DNA of 64,000 nucleotides from Armatimonadaceae bacterium. Lineage in GTDB: Bacteria > Armatimonadota > Armatimonadia > Armatimonadales > Armatimonadaceae. The position numbers were made by a program, and so were the translations under genes. Positions 22,647 to 54,845 of the stretch are shown here, in pieces. Positions within the stretch are counted from its first letter, which is position 1. Every line of letters starts with the position of its first letter. The DNA is taken from NCBI GenBank assembly GCA_030447685.1, contig JAUJOK010000020.1:1-64000 (forward strand). The letters are read 5' to 3'. Below the pieces are notes generated by a model. It worked only from the letters and a program-made list of their open reading frames with translations. It was not told where the DNA came from and searched no databases.

Positions 22647-24071
22647 ATGATCGAAAAGGGCGGCTACATCCGCGACATCTTCCAGAAACCCGTCGGCACA
22701 TCCGTCACGGCCTACGGTTGGGTAAAGACCCGGCGCGACAGCAAGGGAGTCCACTTCATCCAGTTGAACGACGGCTCCTGCTTTCAGGACCTCCAAATCG
22801 TTATCGATGCGGGAACGCTGCCCGAAGATGTGCTTTCCCAGGCGACGACGGGCGCGTGCCTGCGTGTCGGCGGCGAACTGGTTGAATCGCCGGGCGCAGG
22901 ACAGTCCGTGGAACTCAAGGCGCGCGAGATGCACGTCTACGGCCCCGCTGATCCGCAGACGTATCCCCTCCAGAAGAAGGGGCACACAATGGAGTTCCTG
23001 CGCGAGATCGCCCACCTCCGTACCCGCTCGAACACGTTCGGGGCCGTCTTCCGCGTCCGCAACGCCCTCAGCTTCGCTATCCATAAATTCTTTCAGGAGC
23101 GCGGCTTTCTCTACCTGAACGCGCCCATTATCACCACCTCGGATGCTGAGGGCGCGGGCGCGATGTTCGGCGTCACCACACTCGACCTGATGAACCTGCC
23201 GCGCACCGAAACCGGCGAGATAGACTACGACAGGGATTTCTTCGGCAAGAAAGCCGGTCTTACCGTCAGCGGACAGTTGGAAGCCGAGATATTCGCGCTC
23301 GCCTTTTCCAATGTCTACACCTTCGGCCCGACCTTCCGCGCCGAAAACTCCAACACGCCCCGCCACCTCGCCGAGTTCTGGATGATCGAGCCGGAGATGG
23401 CCTTCTATGATCTGGAAGACAACCGTAAGCTGGCCGAGGAGTTCCTGAAATACATCATCGCTTATGTGCTGGACACCTGCGCCGCCGACCTGGAGTTGTT
23501 CAACAAGCGCATCGATAACACGGTTCTGTCGACATTGGTGCATGTAGCGGGAAGCGACTTCGAACACGTCACCTACACCGAAGCCATTGCGATATTGGAG
23601 AAAGCGGGCCGCGCCTGGGAGTTCCCCGTCCACTGGGGCGTCGATCTGCAAAGCGAGCACGAGCGGTATCTGACCGAGGAGACGTTCAAGAAGCCGGTCG
23701 TCGTCACCGACTATCCGCGCGAGATAAAAGCCTTCTACATGCGCCTGAACGACGATGAAAAGACCGTCCGCGCGATGGATGTTCTCGCCCCACGTATCGG
23801 CGAGATCATCGGCGGCTCCCAGCGCGAAGAGCGGTACGACGTTCTGCTGAACAAGATACGCGCGCAGGGCCTGCCCGAAGAGGCCTACTGGTGGTATCTG
23901 GAGTTGCGAAAATACGGCACTGCCCCGCACGCGGGCTTCGGCCTGGGACTGGAGCGGATGCTGATGTACGTCACCGGCATGAAAAACATCCGCGACGTCA
24001 TTCCTTCGCACCCCTGGCTACGCCGAGTTCTGAACCGCCGCAAACCGCATCCTATGAGGGCGCTGTTATAA
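22647..24071 (+). CDS. asnS: Asparaginyl-tRNA synthetase with altered C-terminus
   Basis: A 474-residue class II synthetase. An OB-fold anticodon domain lies at 1-110 ([21 protein letters not shown]). Motif 2 is [11 protein letters not shown], and motif 3 is [16 protein letters not shown]. It aminoacylates tRNA-Asn. The normal family C-terminus after NIRDVIP is a short tail ending PGxAEF and stop. Here the DNA still encodes GYAEF-stop in the next frame (TGA at 24031-24033), but a net loss of 5 bases before it shifts the frame, so the protein ends in 16 novel basic residues ([19 protein letters not shown] region). A second copy of this 3' end lies at 24762-24869. Activity is probably retained, since the change is beyond motif 3. 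Confidence 0.93.
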
Positions 24072-24072
24072 T
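24067..24072 (+). promoter_or_regulatory. -10 box of the VapBC-like operon
   Basis: A perfect TATAAT, overlapping the extended 3' end of asnS. The antitoxin ATG lies 19 bases on, with AGGAG at 24079-24083. Confidence 0.6.
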
Positions 24073-24091
24073 AGCAGCAGGAGTATTGAGC

Positions 24092-24328
24092 ATGGCAGTG
24101 ACGATACGCGCGCATTTCGACGGCAAGGTAATCGTGCCGGACGAACCGGTGGATTTGCCCGTGAACCAGCGGCTCGAAGTAGAGATGAAACCGATTGAGG
24201 ACGACACCAGCGCATCTGCGATAGCCGAGCGCCTGCGACGGCTGGCTCAGGCATCGGGCCGAATTGCCGGTCCTGTTGTCCCGCTGGATGCATTGCGCCG
24301 TGAAAGCCTGTATGAGGAGCGCGGGTGA
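24092..24328 (+). CDS. AF2212/DUF104-like antitoxin
   Basis: 78 residues that begin TIRAHFDGKVIVPDEPVDLP, the beta hairpin typical of the short antitoxins paired with PIN toxins (VapB of the AF2212 or DUF2281-like groups). A helix (ASAIAERLRRLAQASG) and an acidic/basic C-terminus that would contact the toxin follow. It neutralises the PIN protein and may repress the operon. Ribosome site AGGAG is 8 bases upstream. The stop overlaps the GTG start of the toxin by 4 bases. Confidence 0.82.
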   Translation: MAVTIRAHFDGKVIVPDEPVDLPVNQRLEVEMKPIEDDTSASAIAERLRRLAQASGRIAGPVVPLDALRRESLYEERG

Positions 24329-24762
24329 GGATTCTGCTGGACACGAACATTGTTCTCAGGAACGCGGTCATTACTGACCCGCAGCATCCGCAGGTACATG
24401 ATGCTCTGGAACGGTTGGTGCAAGGCGGATGGGAACTTTGCATCGGAGTTCAGAACATGGTGGAATTCTGGGTTGTAGCGACTCGGCCCACGAATGTTAA
24501 TGGTCTGGGCCTTTCTCCCAGCCAGGCAGAGCAGGAGATAGCGGCAATACGAATGGCTTATACGCTTCTTCGTGACCCGGCGGATGCGATGGAACGGTGG
24601 CTTGATCTATGCGTTCGCTATACCGTGAGCGGACGCCCGGCCCATGACGCGCGTCTGGTGGCGCTTATGCTGGCGCATGGCATCACCCATCTTTTCACCT
24701 TAAATCCCACCGACTTTTCCCGCTATACCGAAATTACCGGTCTTACACCGGACGATGTGTAA
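24325..24762 (+). CDS. PIN-domain RNase toxin (VapC-like)
   Basis: 145 residues starting RILLDTNIVLR, with the first metal-binding Asp at residue 6. Acidic positions continue with the Glu in NMVEFWVVATRP and the Asp in GRPAHDARLVALML. The C-terminal strand is LFTLNPTDFSRY, with its conserved Asn/Asp. This is the canonical VapC fold. GTG 24325 overlaps the antitoxin stop, giving translational coupling. The TAA stop in turn overlaps an ATG that opens a leftover copy of the asnS 3' end, so the toxin operon sits precisely between two copies of that sequence. Confidence 0.9.
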   Translation: MRILLDTNIVLRNAVITDPQHPQVHDALERLVQGGWELCIGVQNMVEFWVVATRPTNVNGLGLSPSQAEQEIAAIRMAYTLLRDPADAMERWLDLCVRYTVSGRPAHDARLVALMLAHGITHLFTLNPTDFSRYTEITGLTPDDV

Positions 24763-24869
24763 TGCACCTGGAGCGCATGCTGATGTACGTCACCGGCATG
24801 AAAAACATCCGTGACGTTATCCTTTTATCCCCGCACCATTGGAGAACCGCCGGCTACGCCGAGTTCTGA
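24762..24869 (+). pseudogene. Second copy of the asnS 3' end
   Basis: 36 codons from ATG 24762. They encode [18 protein letters not shown] exactly as in asnS, then 10 unrelated residues, then AGYAEF and stop, the normal end of AsnRS. DNA identity to 23949-23996 is high, with a few synonymous changes. The copy keeps the proper family C-terminus that the main gene has lost, so this is the original tail or a recombination by-product of the toxin-antitoxin insertion. Confidence 0.85.
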
Positions 24870-25055
24870 AACGACAGAAAAAAGAAACAAGCTATACACT
24901 GCCAATGAGTTACGACTTTTATCTATTCCGGCCACGCATCGGAGAACCGCCTTTAGAGACGGTGGAAGCCCTGCTCGCCGAAGAAGAGGAACAGGATGAA
25001 GTCCAGCCAGTTACCTGGCCCACCAAATGAAACGACAGAAAAAGAAAACAAGCTA
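24867..25055. repeat. Pair of 28-bp direct repeats
   Basis: TGAAACGACAGAAAAA begins both copies (24867-24894 and 25028-25055). They end CAAGCTA and differ only in the placing of one G within the A-run. The first overlaps the stop of the asnS tail copy; the second overlaps the stop of the truncated MSYDFYLF reading frame. They look like recombination footprints. Confidence 0.8.
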
Positions 25056-25502
25056 GTGCCCAGGTACAGGAGGCGTTCCGTAGCTGCCGGCCTTTTACAG
25101 GAAAATCCAGCCCCAGCTCTTTCAGTCGCTATTTATGATTTCAATGCTATCGCCACGTTCGATCGGGAATATTTCTGGAGCGTCTCTTTGAGGAGGCTCG
25201 CAGACGGAATCAAAGTGGACATCGAAAACTGACAATGCGCCCGACCAGGTTGGGAGGCAACGGAATCCATAGGATATTGGTATAACACTATTTGACGATA
25301 CAGCCAGCGTCACCGTACCGTATTGGCATGAGGCGGAAAAGGCGCGAGAAGTCTTTGAAGAAATCTGGCGTTACTTAAGGTTGCTCCAGAACACAGGCCA
25401 ATTTCTTGTTTACGATCCGCAGATCGAACAGGTGCTTGATCTTGATAAGGACTTTATCTCTGTCTTAACGACGTATACGGATGTTATCCGTCGCTTGTGG
25501 TA
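24905..25502 (+). pseudogene. Shattered gene of an MSYDFYLFRP-type protein family
   Basis: The start reads MSYDFYLFRPRIGEPPLE followed by an acidic stretch and a stop at 25030. Conserved-looking parts then continue in shifting frames: LLQENPAPALSVAIYDFNAIA, then DNAPDQVG, then from about 25287 a clean stretch GITLFDDTASVTVPYWHEAE through FEEIWRYLRLLQ to a stop at 25502. The pieces appear in the correct order, with at least three frame changes. The intact family is a soluble protein of about 170-200 residues with no function known to me. A 28-bp repeat interrupts it. Confidence 0.65.
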
Positions 25503-25516
25503 AAACGGAGGTTCCC

Positions 25517-25777
25517 GTGAAAACGCAGTCGCCGGATACGCACCCGGATATAGAGAAGATTCAGATTGAAGGTTATCGGCGAATGTCGGCGGCGGAGAAG
25601 CTGCGGATCGTGGGCGACCTGAACCGCTTCGCCGTCAATCTTATTCTGGCAGAGGTGCGCCGCCGCCACCCGGACGCTGACGAGGAAGAGGTGCGTCTGC
25701 GCGCCGCCTCCCGATGGCTTCCTGCCGAACTGATGCGGAAGGCTTTTGGCTGGAATCCTGACGAGAAAGGTTATTGA
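25517..25777 (+). CDS. Small charged protein paired with a nucleotidyltransferase
   Basis: 86 residues, all-helical by composition (SAAEKLRIVGDLNRFAVNLILAEVRRRHPDADEEEVRLRAASRWL). The start is GTG 25517, set by GGAGG 5 bases upstream. It is close to the nucleotidyltransferase that follows (6-base gap). Many bacterial genomes encode such a pair: a short helical protein of roughly 80-100 residues ahead of a DUF6036-like nucleotidyltransferase. The arrangement suggests a two-gene stress or toxin-antitoxin module; this is inference from position. Confidence 0.75.
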   Translation: MKTQSPDTHPDIEKIQIEGYRRMSAAEKLRIVGDLNRFAVNLILAEVRRRHPDADEEEVRLRAASRWLPAELMRKAFGWNPDEKGY

Positions 25778-25783
25778 GCCGCC

Positions 25784-26365
25784 GTGTCCGACCCGGAAGA
25801 TTTGATTCAGATACTGGCGCGGGCGTTCGATGCGGCAGGCATTACCTACTGGGTAGGCGGTTCGATGGCGAGTACGATCCACGGCTTTGCTCGATTGACC
25901 CAGGACGTGGATATAGTCGCGGACATGGGCGAGGATCAGGTGGAGGCCTTTGTCGCGGAGCTTGCGGACAGGTTCTACGCCGACCCGGACATGATGCGCG
26001 AGGCGATTCGGACACGCTCTTCGTTCAATATTATCTACCTGGCGACGATGATGAAAGCGGACATCTTTATCATGCCGGACACAGACTGGGCGCGCTCCGA
26101 GCGTGCCCGGCGACAGCGGGCGCGAGTAGGGCAGTCTGCGGAGGCAGTTTACGTCGCCAGCGCCGAGGATATGATCCTGCAAAAGCTGGAATCGTATCGG
26201 CTGACCGGGGAACGCTCCGACCGGCAATGGGGAGATGTGCAGGGTATGTTGAAGGTGCAGGGGAAGGCGCTTGACTTCGACTATCTACGGCGGTGGGCGG
26301 GCGAGTTAGGGCTTAATCAGCTTTTAGATCACGCCTTTGACGATGCCGGTATAAAGGAAGGCTGA
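25784..26365 (+). CDS. DUF6036-like nucleotidyltransferase-fold protein
   Basis: 193 residues. The motif YWVGGSMASTIHGFARLTQDVDIVADM contains GG(S) followed by DVD, the metal-binding signature of minimal nucleotidyltransferases. FNIIYLATMMKADIFIM supplies the third acidic position, and VASAEDMILQKLESYRLTGE is the conserved downstream helix. Proteins of this fold act as AMPylating antitoxins (MNT), AbiEii-like toxins or orphan enzymes. The start is GTG 25784. It is followed after about 45 bases by a bidirectional terminator. Confidence 0.85.
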   Translation: MSDPEDLIQILARAFDAAGITYWVGGSMASTIHGFARLTQDVDIVADMGEDQVEAFVAELADRFYADPDMMREAIRTRSSFNIIYLATMMKADIFIMPDTDWARSERARRQRARVGQSAEAVYVASAEDMILQKLESYRLTGERSDRQWGDVQGMLKVQGKALDFDYLRRWAGELGLNQLLDHAFDDAGIKEG

Positions 26366-44027: not shown

Positions 44028-44083
44028 GTCAAAAGCGACGCTTGAAGGCGGTGACGGTCATGGCGGCGGCGCAATGGAGAAAC
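44028..44083 (-). repeat. Leftover copy of the DUF2227 3' end
   Basis: 56 bases that match 44750-44805 with three mismatches. On the minus strand they encode HCAAAMTVTAFKRRF and stop, the tail of the DUF2227 gene. No start or body is present, so it is a fragment. It and the intact tail bracket the nucleotidyltransferase gene. Confidence 0.85.
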
Positions 44084-44143: not shown

Positions 44144-44701
44144 CTATGCCAGTTCCTGCGGCAGTCGCTCAATCCAGTCAGCATCAATCAAAGCCACTTC
44201 CAGTAAGTCACGAAGGTGTGTGCGATCTTTGTCGCGGAACGCGGTCAGCTTGATGCGAACCAGAGCCTCTAAACTTAATACCCGAAACTGATCCGCCATC
44301 ACGGATTCCGCGACATCCGGGTTGGGCAGAGCCTCGTGCTCACGAACTTTCTCACCCGCGAAAACAATATGAACCGCGTCACGTGTTTTCGCCTGGGGGC
44401 CATCCAGAAAAACGTCAAGGCCCGCAATATGCCGATAAACAAAGCCAACTTTCTCCAGGGCGGAAGTCGCCGCTGTCAGGTCAGCGCGGCGAATCAGAAT
44501 ATTCACATCGCGCGTGTTTCTTACAGCGGCCTCATCCACGCGTGTCACCCAGGCCGCGACCGCATTCCCACCGGCCACGGCATACGCAACCCCCGCCTGT
44601 TCCAACGCTTCCGTCGCCCGCAGCAGACGCACCCGAACCTTTCCACCGCGCTCACCATCCTGTCCAGGGAAAATGCTCCATAGGTTGTGGTCATGGTTCA
44701 T
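44144..44701 (-). CDS. Nucleotidyltransferase-fold protein
   Basis: 185 residues. AYAVAGGNAVAAWVTRVDE and then VRNTRDVNILIRRADL give the G-G-N and DVN positions of the minimal nucleotidyltransferase signature; DVN instead of DVD replaces the second acidic metal ligand, so activity is doubtful. The third position may lie in KTRDAVHIVFAG. The C-terminal ALVRIKLTAFRDKDRTHLRDLLEVA helix is typical of DUF6036-like proteins. The gene lies between two copies of a neighbour's 3' end, like an inserted cargo gene. Confidence 0.8.
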   Translation of the reverse strand: MNHDHNLWSIFPGQDGERGGKVRVRLLRATEALEQAGVAYAVAGGNAVAAWVTRVDEAAVRNTRDVNILIRRADLTAATSALEKVGFVYRHIAGLDVFLDGPQAKTRDAVHIVFAGEKVREHEALPNPDVAESVMADQFRVLSLEALVRIKLTAFRDKDRTHLRDLLEVALIDADWIERLPQELA

Positions 44702-44750
44702 TCTAACACCGAAAAGTTAGAGGGCTGTGCTTTGTAAGGAGACTGACCTG

Positions 44751-45270
44751 TCAAAAGCGGCGCTTGAAGGCGGTGACGGCCATGTCGGCGGCGCAATGGA
44801 GAAACGCGCCGAGGAACAGGCCCAGAACCAGCATCTGGAAGTGCTGCGGGTGGGTATGGGGCAGATTTATCAGGGCGTCCAGCCACTGGCGGGAAAGGGG
44901 CGTTGCGGTCCACGGGCACGAGGGAATTAACGACTACCCAGGAGCCGATGCGGAAGATGCCGAAGACGATAGCCAGAAAATAAAGCGTCCGCACGAGCGG
45001 GCCAAGCAGGAACGAGTGCGAGATCCAGGAGCGGTGCGGGACGAGCTTCTGATAGGGCCACCAGAGCCAGCGGAAGATGCCCCAGCGCCGGTAAACGGAG
45101 GAATCCAGGTCTAAATCCGGCGAGATGGCAAGCCCGGAAAACAGCATGGAAGCGATAAGCACGGCCCCCGCGCCCAGATCGCGCGGGGTAGCCGAAAAAT
45201 GCCACCAGACCGGCACGGACAAACCTGCCGCGATGATGGTTATCTGATCATGAACCTTGCCGCTGGGCAC
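44751..45270 (-). pseudogene. DUF2227-like metal-binding membrane protein, one frameshift
   Basis: ATG 45270 begins MPSGKVHDQITIIAAGL, with a His and Asp pair followed by membrane helices and PDLDLDSSVYRRWG. WLWWPYQKLVPHRSWISHSFLLGP adds further conserved His residues. This is the DUF2227 family (integral membrane, putative metal-dependent). At about 44891-44900 (a GGGG run) the frame shifts. The intact continuation reads RQWLDALINLPHTHP, then helix LVLGLFLGAFLHCAADM and a stop TTTTGA at 44751. The length 520 is not divisible by three, so one base has been gained or lost. Confidence 0.8.
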
Positions 45271-54211: not shown

Positions 54212-54235
54212 CAGCCGGAATTGTCCGTTATTTTT

Positions 54236-54810
54236 CCGTCACGTTTTTCCCGTCGATTGAAATCACGGCTACGGAAAACACAAAGTCCGCCTGCGCGGAC
54301 TGAGAGATGGATTCATGGCGGATGTAATGAATGCGGTTTGCTTACATCTTGTGTGGGCGACGTATGACCGGCAGCCGTTGTTGGTGCCCGAGATACGGGC
54401 ATTGGTATATCGAGAAATCATTGCCAAAGGTAAGGAGAACCTGTGTCCCGTCGTCGCTATCGGTGGTACTGATGACCATGTCCATGTGGTGGTGCAATTT
54501 GCGACGACGGTTTCCATCTCCAAGCTGGTGAAAGACATGAAGGGAGCGTCATCGCATCTGGCTAATCATCGGGAGACAGGCGTACCGGGGACGTTCAAAT
54601 GGCAGGGCACCTATGGCGTCTTTCCCATAGAGCCGGACAGCCTGCCGCGCGTTATACATTACGTGGAACGGCAGGAAGAGCATCACCGGGATGATTCGGT
54701 CGATCCGCGCCTGGAGCAAACCAGCCGCCCAACACCTCAAGAATAGTCCGCGCAGGCGGACTTTGTGTTTTCCGTAGCCGCGATTTCAATCGACGGGCAA
54801 AACGTGACGG
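54236..54810. mobile_element. IS200/RAYT-type element with 66-bp inverted ends
   Basis: About 575 bases. Left end 54236-54301 and right end 54745-54810 are inverted repeats that match at 64 of 66 positions. Each contains the hairpin AGTCCGC-CTGC-GCGGACT (54284-54301 on the left). A single tyrosine transposase gene lies between. Elements of this kind use a single-strand peel-and-paste mechanism and usually have subterminal hairpins, but such long near-perfect inverted ends are unusual. The pair REP-transposase-REP resembles a RAYT unit. It sits between ispH and the polymerase gene. Confidence 0.88.
54315..54746 (+). CDS. REP-associated/IS200-like Y1 transposase
   Basis: 143 residues, length normal for TnpA of the IS200 group. 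The HUH metal motif is DDHVHVVVQF (His-x-His), and the catalytic Tyr is in HYVERQEEHHR near the C-terminus. The N-terminal strand VCLHLVWATYDRQPLL is typical (HLVWxT). It cuts and rejoins single-stranded DNA at the hairpins of the flanking repeats. ATG 54315 is the only good start; its upstream leader is the left inverted end. Confidence 0.93.
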   Translation: MADVMNAVCLHLVWATYDRQPLLVPEIRALVYREIIAKGKENLCPVVAIGGTDDHVHVVVQFATTVSISKLVKDMKGASSHLANHRETGVPGTFKWQGTYGVFPIEPDSLPRVIHYVERQEEHHRDDSVDPRLEQTSRPTPQE

Positions 54811-54845
54811 GCAAAAATGGCGACGGGCAAAACGCGACAGAAAAA
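54790..54845. repeat. Degenerate 14-16 bp tandem repeat
   Basis: GACGGGCAAAA recurs at about 54792, 54806 and 54821, followed by weaker GACAG units. It begins within the right end of the IS200/RAYT element and continues past it. Confidence 0.6.

Follow-up and report, generated by a model that had tools for sequence, protein, structure and literature searches.

How a toxin–antitoxin pair comes to lie between two copies of the same gene end is the question raised by asnS, the gene encoding asparaginyl-tRNA synthetase (AsnRS), in a stretch of 64,000 nucleotides (nt) of an Armatimonadaceae bacterium (contig JAUJOK010000020.1, positions 1 to 64,000; this whole stretch is referred to as the window). 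Here a VapBC-like pair follows the asnS reading frame and is itself followed by a second copy of the asnS 3' end. The same layout of gene tail, insert and gene tail was found on six unrelated genes, with a different insert each time, and this recurrence on unrelated genes and genomes, at or near the 3' end in the six cases, is the more interesting result of the analysis. What emerges resembles a general way of inserting at the 3' ends of genes, not an attachment site specific to asnS. The asnS locus consists of the following features:

22647–24071, plus strand: asnS (AsnRS) reading frame (Pfam tRNA-synt_2, 6e-63), homologous up to about 24000, the final approximately 24 codons being frameshifted
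23949–24037, plus strand: upstream copy of the asnS 3' end, stop codon included, 5 nt short (blastn, relatives' tails)
24092–24328, plus strand: VapB-like antitoxin gene, AF2212-like, 78 amino acids (aa) (PF01954, 14.3 bits, under the cut-off of 21.6)
24325–24762, plus strand: VapC-like PIN-domain toxin gene (PF01850, 25.9 bits, cut-off 23.6)
24768–24873, plus strand: downstream copy of the asnS 3' end, 12 nt longer in frame (blastn; PF00152, 15.5 bits, under the cut-off)

The two gene ends correspond to each other in two blocks, the first (23949–24006 and 24768–24825) with 91% identity over 58 nt at a spacing of 819, the second (24010–24044 and 24846–24880), around the stop codon, with 83% identity; both are joined by blastn into a single match of 23949–24037 to 24768–24873 with an E-value of 5e-17. 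When the 4.1-kb region was shuffled 300 times in two-base blocks, a match of at least 70% to the 54-nt tail never appeared. The recurrence of the last asnS codons claimed in the original prediction is real. The claim that the toxin–antitoxin genes fill the space between the tails also holds, as they extend from 24092 to 24762, with the vapC start overlapping the vapB stop by 4 nt and the tail copy beginning 5 nt past the vapC stop. The VapC-like protein exceeds the PF01850 cut-off, as expected for the PIN domain of a VapBC toxin, and scores 48.3 bits against TIGR00028, under the cut-off of 73.6. The inserted unit should act as an ordinary VapBC toxin–antitoxin pair, which would favour its retention. 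According to open reading frames (ORFs) and Pfam, only vapBC is present between the asnS repeats, with no integrase.

Both tails were compared with those of 23 relatives (at least 65% identity, asnS end in view), drawn from 30 loci after leaving out the window's own locus, two loci without the end in view and four distant paralogues. All 23 have an uninterrupted P-[FY]-x-R-x-P...F-stop C-terminus. Measured against these, the upstream copy lacks 5 nt and the downstream one carries 12 additional nt in frame; the standard tail is found in neither. The downstream copy, which had been regarded as the proper AsnRS tail, is thus not one: it reads RDVILLSPHHWRTAGYAEF-stop, its 12-nt in-frame excess displacing the conserved PFPRTP stretch. 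The loss of about 5 bases ascribed to the upstream gene stands as a difference from all 23 relatives and may nevertheless be an assembly error; it is insecure because frameshifts are more common in this assembly (5 junctions across 32 conserved genes totalling 32.8 kb, dnaA accounting for two of them) than in control genomes (1 across 30 genes totalling 30.9 kb), and nothing is built on it here. The 35-aa ORF at 24762–24869, its ATG sharing the sequence TAATG with the vapC stop, is the reading of the downstream copy; that it provides a split or trans-acting AsnRS tail was considered and appears unlikely, the conserved PFPRTP stretch being replaced. As GatB is present in the genome, loss of AsnRS might be tolerable. 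No further copies of the asnS tail were found elsewhere in the same genome.

The comparison set of relatives comprises other genera only, the closest named AsnRS sequences being those of Chthonomonadaceae assemblies with 77% and 74% identity. Neither vapB nor vapC is matched at any of 17 relative asnS loci, and a second asnS tail is absent from all 16 loci with enough flank (the seventeenth, L002, has less than 0.1 kb); the best second-tail candidate among the relatives reaches 57% identity in DNA and 39% in protein, as compared with 89% and 94% in the window. The target is therefore single where the unit is absent, in agreement with the predicted insertion of a module behind asnS together with a second gene end. 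A tail repeat without the module, which would speak against insertion, occurs in none of the 16 loci, and the search of relative asnS loci for another tail followed by a toxin–antitoxin pair and a tail copy, suggested with the original prediction, yielded none. As for the empty asnS site expected in close relatives, one Chthonomonadaceae assembly (locus L054) has a single tail with an antitoxin homologue 17 nt after asnS; this gene, reading in two frames in L054, is the homologue of the Rv0078B-type gene located beyond the insert in the window. Gene order thus makes L054 a candidate for the empty site, from an organism that is not close (AsnRS 77% identical). The asnS of another relative, G005, shares with the window two farther opposite-strand neighbours, which we take to be a sigma factor and a PNKP-like gene, and has no vapBC. 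Matches to VapC are present in 23 of 61 genomes, the own genome included, the best beyond it having 59% identity across most of the length and 67% within a 103-aa part; no such match is listed as adjoining asnS, the nearest on the same contig being approximately 64 kb off.

Direct repeats were screened in the own genome, a 116-contig assembly of which 1,137,717 bases were covered, window included (37 of the 116 contigs in part; 23,914 bases N), in three relatives (G005, G020 and G052, together 800 kb), in 80 named asnS loci from many phyla (912,700 bases) and in 400 kb of Escherichia coli K-12. Eight small contigs of the own genome (C8, C10, C11, C14, C15, C17, C18 and C20) consist of N throughout. 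The second case concerns a DUF2227 gene, between the two ends of which there is a single gene:

44750–44805, minus strand: 3' end of the DUF2227 gene with stop codon (gene body 45270–44806)
44144–44701, minus strand: inserted gene for a 185-aa nucleotidyltransferase, NTP_transf_5/AbiEii-like (Pfam, under cut-offs)
44028–44083, minus strand: downstream copy of the DUF2227 3' end with stop codon (95% identity over 56 nt)

The reading frame of the DUF2227 gene appears to shift by +1 ahead of its end. In the third case, on contig C74 of the same genome, a broken groEL, adjoined by a gene that is presumably groES, has a segment close to its end that recurs 835 nt further on, and the repeats surround two small opposite-strand genes. 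Several frameshifts are seen in this groEL (positions 1500–3115 of L201, i.e. C74:60001–80000), and another groEL match, to model positions 1–414 of 526, is located on C97. Two further cases, the only ones in the 800 kb of the three relatives, were both found in G020, whose phylum is that of the window: in case i a 227-aa gene and a tail copy come after a pectate-lyase-like gene, in case ii a 259-aa gene and a tail copy come after an adenosine-deaminase-like gene, with no Pfam match at an E-value of 0.01 for either inserted gene. The sixth, the sole case among the 80 named asnS loci, is that of the cyanobacterium Okeania (L079), where an alanine-dehydrogenase-like gene is followed by a polysaccharide-deacetylase gene and a tail copy. 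The layout was not seen in the 400 kb of E. coli K-12. Over the six cases the aligned tails measure 40–106 nt and the inserts 666–908 nt, and no recombinase is recognisable between the repeats by Pfam match, two of the inserted genes matching nothing.

The number of cases rests on our judgement of the listed repeat pairs and amounts, by hand count, to 3 of 21 pairs from the own genome (groEL, with its broken frame, having been chosen by eye) and 2 of 12 control pairs; most of the own pairs and five of the control pairs were inspected, the remainder being assessed by their position relative to ORFs. Script-labelled tail pairs at C80:8118, G005:395329, L084, L096 and L109 were rejected by eye, as were the three E. 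coli tail-labelled pairs, two of which are repeats behind yafL by rayT and one a repeat within the adhesin gene yeeJ. Pairs labelled as gene heads (four in the own genome, none in the relatives, none in the named loci and three in E. coli) were taken, from ORFs or neighbours and for some without a detailed view, for paralogues or for gene-internal or intergenic repeats.

The differences between the copies bear on their origin. The two asnS tails are 92.6% identical over 54 nt, and compared with G003, from another genus, they show 94% and 91% identity, respectively. Over the three cases of the own genome there are 11 synonymous versus 2 nonsynonymous codon differences (asnS 4:0, DUF2227 1:2, groEL 6:0); under a null model in which the copies are identical at birth, the upstream one being subsequently purified and the downstream one drifting freely, such a bias has probabilities of 0.0009, 0.0018 and 0.0036 for transition weights of 1, 2 and 4. 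Because of this synonymous bias, and because the distance between the copies is about that to G003, the codon differences suggest that in the own genome one tail copy derives from the functional gene of a diverged relative.

We consider it evenly balanced between right and wrong that vapBC was added behind asnS without a recombinase of its own, through short homology with the gene end and most likely by a single crossover of a circularised fragment. A related organism would have supplied a fragment comprising the final approximately 50–110 bp of its asnS together with vapBC. This fragment would have joined the chromosome where the gene ends are homologous, a RecA-type single crossover following circularisation being the most likely way; this would leave a gene end on either side of the insert, one of them with donor alleles, and the tail no longer serving the gene would decay afterwards. 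By the same route, other small gene units would have been placed behind DUF2227, groEL and the genes of other genomes. The homologous sequence observed to flank the insert on either side is what a single crossover would leave, and the six cases may be confined to positions at or near gene 3' ends because selection would permit them there, an insert behind a restored gene end being harmless. Donor origin, circularisation and a single crossover are what we infer from a small number of cases, six in all. A laboratory precedent is known from E. coli, where 56 of 60 clones obtained with fragments that included a gene end are reported to have contained a duplication product (Amarir-Bouhram et al. 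2011, PMC3240628), and where 14 sequenced products had 109–950 bp of the gene end repeated around foreign DNA, which the same text explains by shortened, re-circularised molecules and a single crossover (PMC3240628).

Several observations weigh against this route. No close pair of strains with and without the insert was found, the AsnRS of L054 being just 77% identical, and no donor carrying the downstream asnS allele, with its codons CGC, CGT, GTT and ATC, is known. The codon counts were made in hand-chosen indel-free blocks, from which indel-touched codons were dropped, and over all six cases the bias is weaker (17 synonymous to 12 nonsynonymous; P of 0.012, 0.032 and 0.070), with case ii of G020 (3:4) and L079 (0:4) resembling neutral decay. 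The groEL copy stops 17 codons before the gene end. In two cases (G020 case i and vapC) a stop codon and the end of the insert lie 0 and 5 nt apart, respectively, which is neater than random circularisation predicts. Finally, a protein-level search returned, for the own sample, 11 tail and 11 head lines (at least 26 bits) and thus no excess of tails; it recovered just asnS and G020 case ii among the six, and the six places viewed from it proved to be paralogues, repeats or an assembly duplication.

Among the other explanations, the original prediction favoured an integrative element. Such elements at tRNA or other gene 3' ends restore the end of their target and leave a second copy at the far side, and the asnS 3' end might likewise be a regenerated attachment site; the duplicated gene end around the insert agrees with this, and a donor end would be under coding constraint. 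It was nevertheless abandoned as very unlikely, since the space between the repeats lacks an integrase, the asnS copies are not identical (4 of 54 nt plus indels), five other unrelated genes are hit and no further asnS-tail copy was found in the genome. As little credit is given to an assembly artefact, in which strain variants or contig ends were wrongly joined. The assembly is indeed fragmented into 116 contigs and shows frameshifts in dnaA; among the 16 runs of 100 N in its sampled part, 5 are flanked on both sides by exact 55-nt overlaps, and a head duplication beside N was seen in L077. The window, however, contains no N, and the longest exact match between copies is 35 nt for asnS and 20 nt for DUF2227, hence the asnS repeat is not the product of the 55-nt overlap artefact, and the layout recurs in G020 and L079, which are separate assemblies. 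The objection that the repeat itself is artefactual is accordingly disfavoured.

A rather unlikely alternative, the strongest of the rivals, is insertion with long target duplication as known for Helicobacter restriction–modification systems, in which a unit inserts and about 100 bp of the target are duplicated in place; it has been described for restriction–modification units (PMC3874152 and PMC1643837, citing Nobusato et al. 2000). Direct repeats of about 100 bp do flank the unit here, and the repeat length, the lack of a recombinase and the selfish two-gene unit agree with those accounts (PMC3874152, PMC1643837), yet Pfam detects no restriction–modification genes among the inserts, and copies identical at birth are predicted, against whose free drift afterwards the 11:2 ratio of the own genome argues. 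In the portions of the literature consulted, the phrase was met in connection with toxin–antitoxin systems in reference lists only, which is no proof of absence. Tandem duplication or acquisition of asnS (or of asnS with vapBC), followed by near-total deletion of the second asnS, would account for copies with synonymous differences only, and real tandem paralogues do occur in the sample; random deletion should, however, vary the length of the tail, whereas all six cases keep just 40–106 nt near the gene end, and no longer remnant was recognised among the pairs with an aligned length of up to 250 nt, which makes this origin distinctly improbable. The chances are poorer still for homology-facilitated illegitimate recombination, with a crossover in asnS at one end of the fragment and illegitimate joining inside the resident tail. 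Requiring no circle, it would fit one homologous and one non-homologous junction and explain copies that are different alleles; against this, PMC3240628 describes the usual deletion of insert-sized DNA and mostly 3–10 bp of microhomology, while here the resident end is kept and the DUF2227 junction shows no clear microhomology by eye, without a systematic test. No literature joining this type of recombination with toxin–antitoxin systems was found, which again does not prove absence.

Beyond the insert, the region downstream of the second asnS tail contains the following features:

24867–24894, plus strand: 28-nt repeat, copy 1, starting with the stop codon that closes the second asnS tail
25028–25055, plus strand: 28-nt repeat, copy 2, beginning at the stop codon of a small ORF (24905–25030)
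25050–25288, plus strand: insertion-sequence (IS) shreds, of which longer relatives occur on contigs C74 and C85, the one on C85 with a DDE_3 transposase
25517–25777, plus strand: Rv0078B-related antitoxin gene (PF18993, 32.2 bits, cut-off 27.1; ORF listed from 25481)
25784–26365, plus strand: nucleotidyltransferase gene, DUF6036/AbiEii-like (Pfam, under the cut-off)

The 28-nt repeats, for which the genome has two sites when up to 3 mismatches are allowed, bracket a 41-codon ORF (MSYDFYLF...), and a 15-nt near-repeat at 24837 and 24937 is situated in part within the 12 extra nt of the second asnS tail; both may have arisen from local template switching. An IS-borne module was rejected, because the shreds sit downstream and not at the module edges. 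The nucleotidyltransferase is likely the partner of the preceding antitoxin, so that a second toxin–antitoxin-like pair (25517–26365) is found behind the VapBC-like one. Elsewhere in the window, 71-nt inverted repeats (54231–54301 and 54745–54815, 94% complementary) surround the ORF of a Y1 (IS200-like) transposase (54315–54746), the gene directly before which we take to be ispH-like. On C80 of G020, at about 206.4–207.2 kb, a 146-aa ORF, presumably transposase-like, lies near direct repeats. In E. coli K-12 an 80-nt exact direct repeat (1096961–1097583; L283 46961–47583), with 463 nt between the copies, ends in the tRNA gene serX and looks like a classical tRNA-end remnant.

The route by which solitary chromosomal toxin–antitoxin pairs arrive is unsettled, and a copy of a gene tail is a recognisable scar, which would permit any genome to be searched for such insertions, their order to be dated and the DNA of relatives to be tested as their source. 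It also offers a plain reason for the presence of units behind housekeeping genes, as insertion at a 3' end that is restored does no harm. More speculatively, and with the odds against it, the six cases could reflect a widespread recombinase-free pathway placing small units behind host stop codons by 40–110 bp of gene-end homology from related species, with the tail copy as its scar; the repeats might then keep the unit excisable and re-insertable, and any gene 3' end would be a low-grade integration site.

Compared with known systems, the inserted pair resembles type II VapBC modules with an AF2212-like antitoxin and a PIN toxin in the 4-nt overlap of a small antitoxin gene with the toxin gene, and differs from the standard in an antitoxin match under the family cut-off. 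Unlike the integrative elements of tRNA genes and other gene 3' ends, the inserts described here have no integrase, no fixed target gene and non-identical repeats. The products of homology-facilitated illegitimate recombination (PMC3240628) similarly hold foreign DNA by homology at a single end, but they usually combine insertion with deletion, whereas here a second gene end is retained. With long target duplication the present cases share a small recombinase-free selfish unit between direct target repeats of about 100 bp; they differ in carrying VapBC, a nucleotidyltransferase and uncharacterised genes, in lying, in the cases found, at gene 3' ends and in copies that, in the own genome, differ mostly synonymously. 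The layout is also that of the E. coli single-crossover products, in which, according to PMC3240628, foreign DNA lies between duplicated gene ends of 109–950 bp; those arose under laboratory selection with lacZ, whereas the inserts described here are natural, with repeats of 40–106 nt and diverged alleles.
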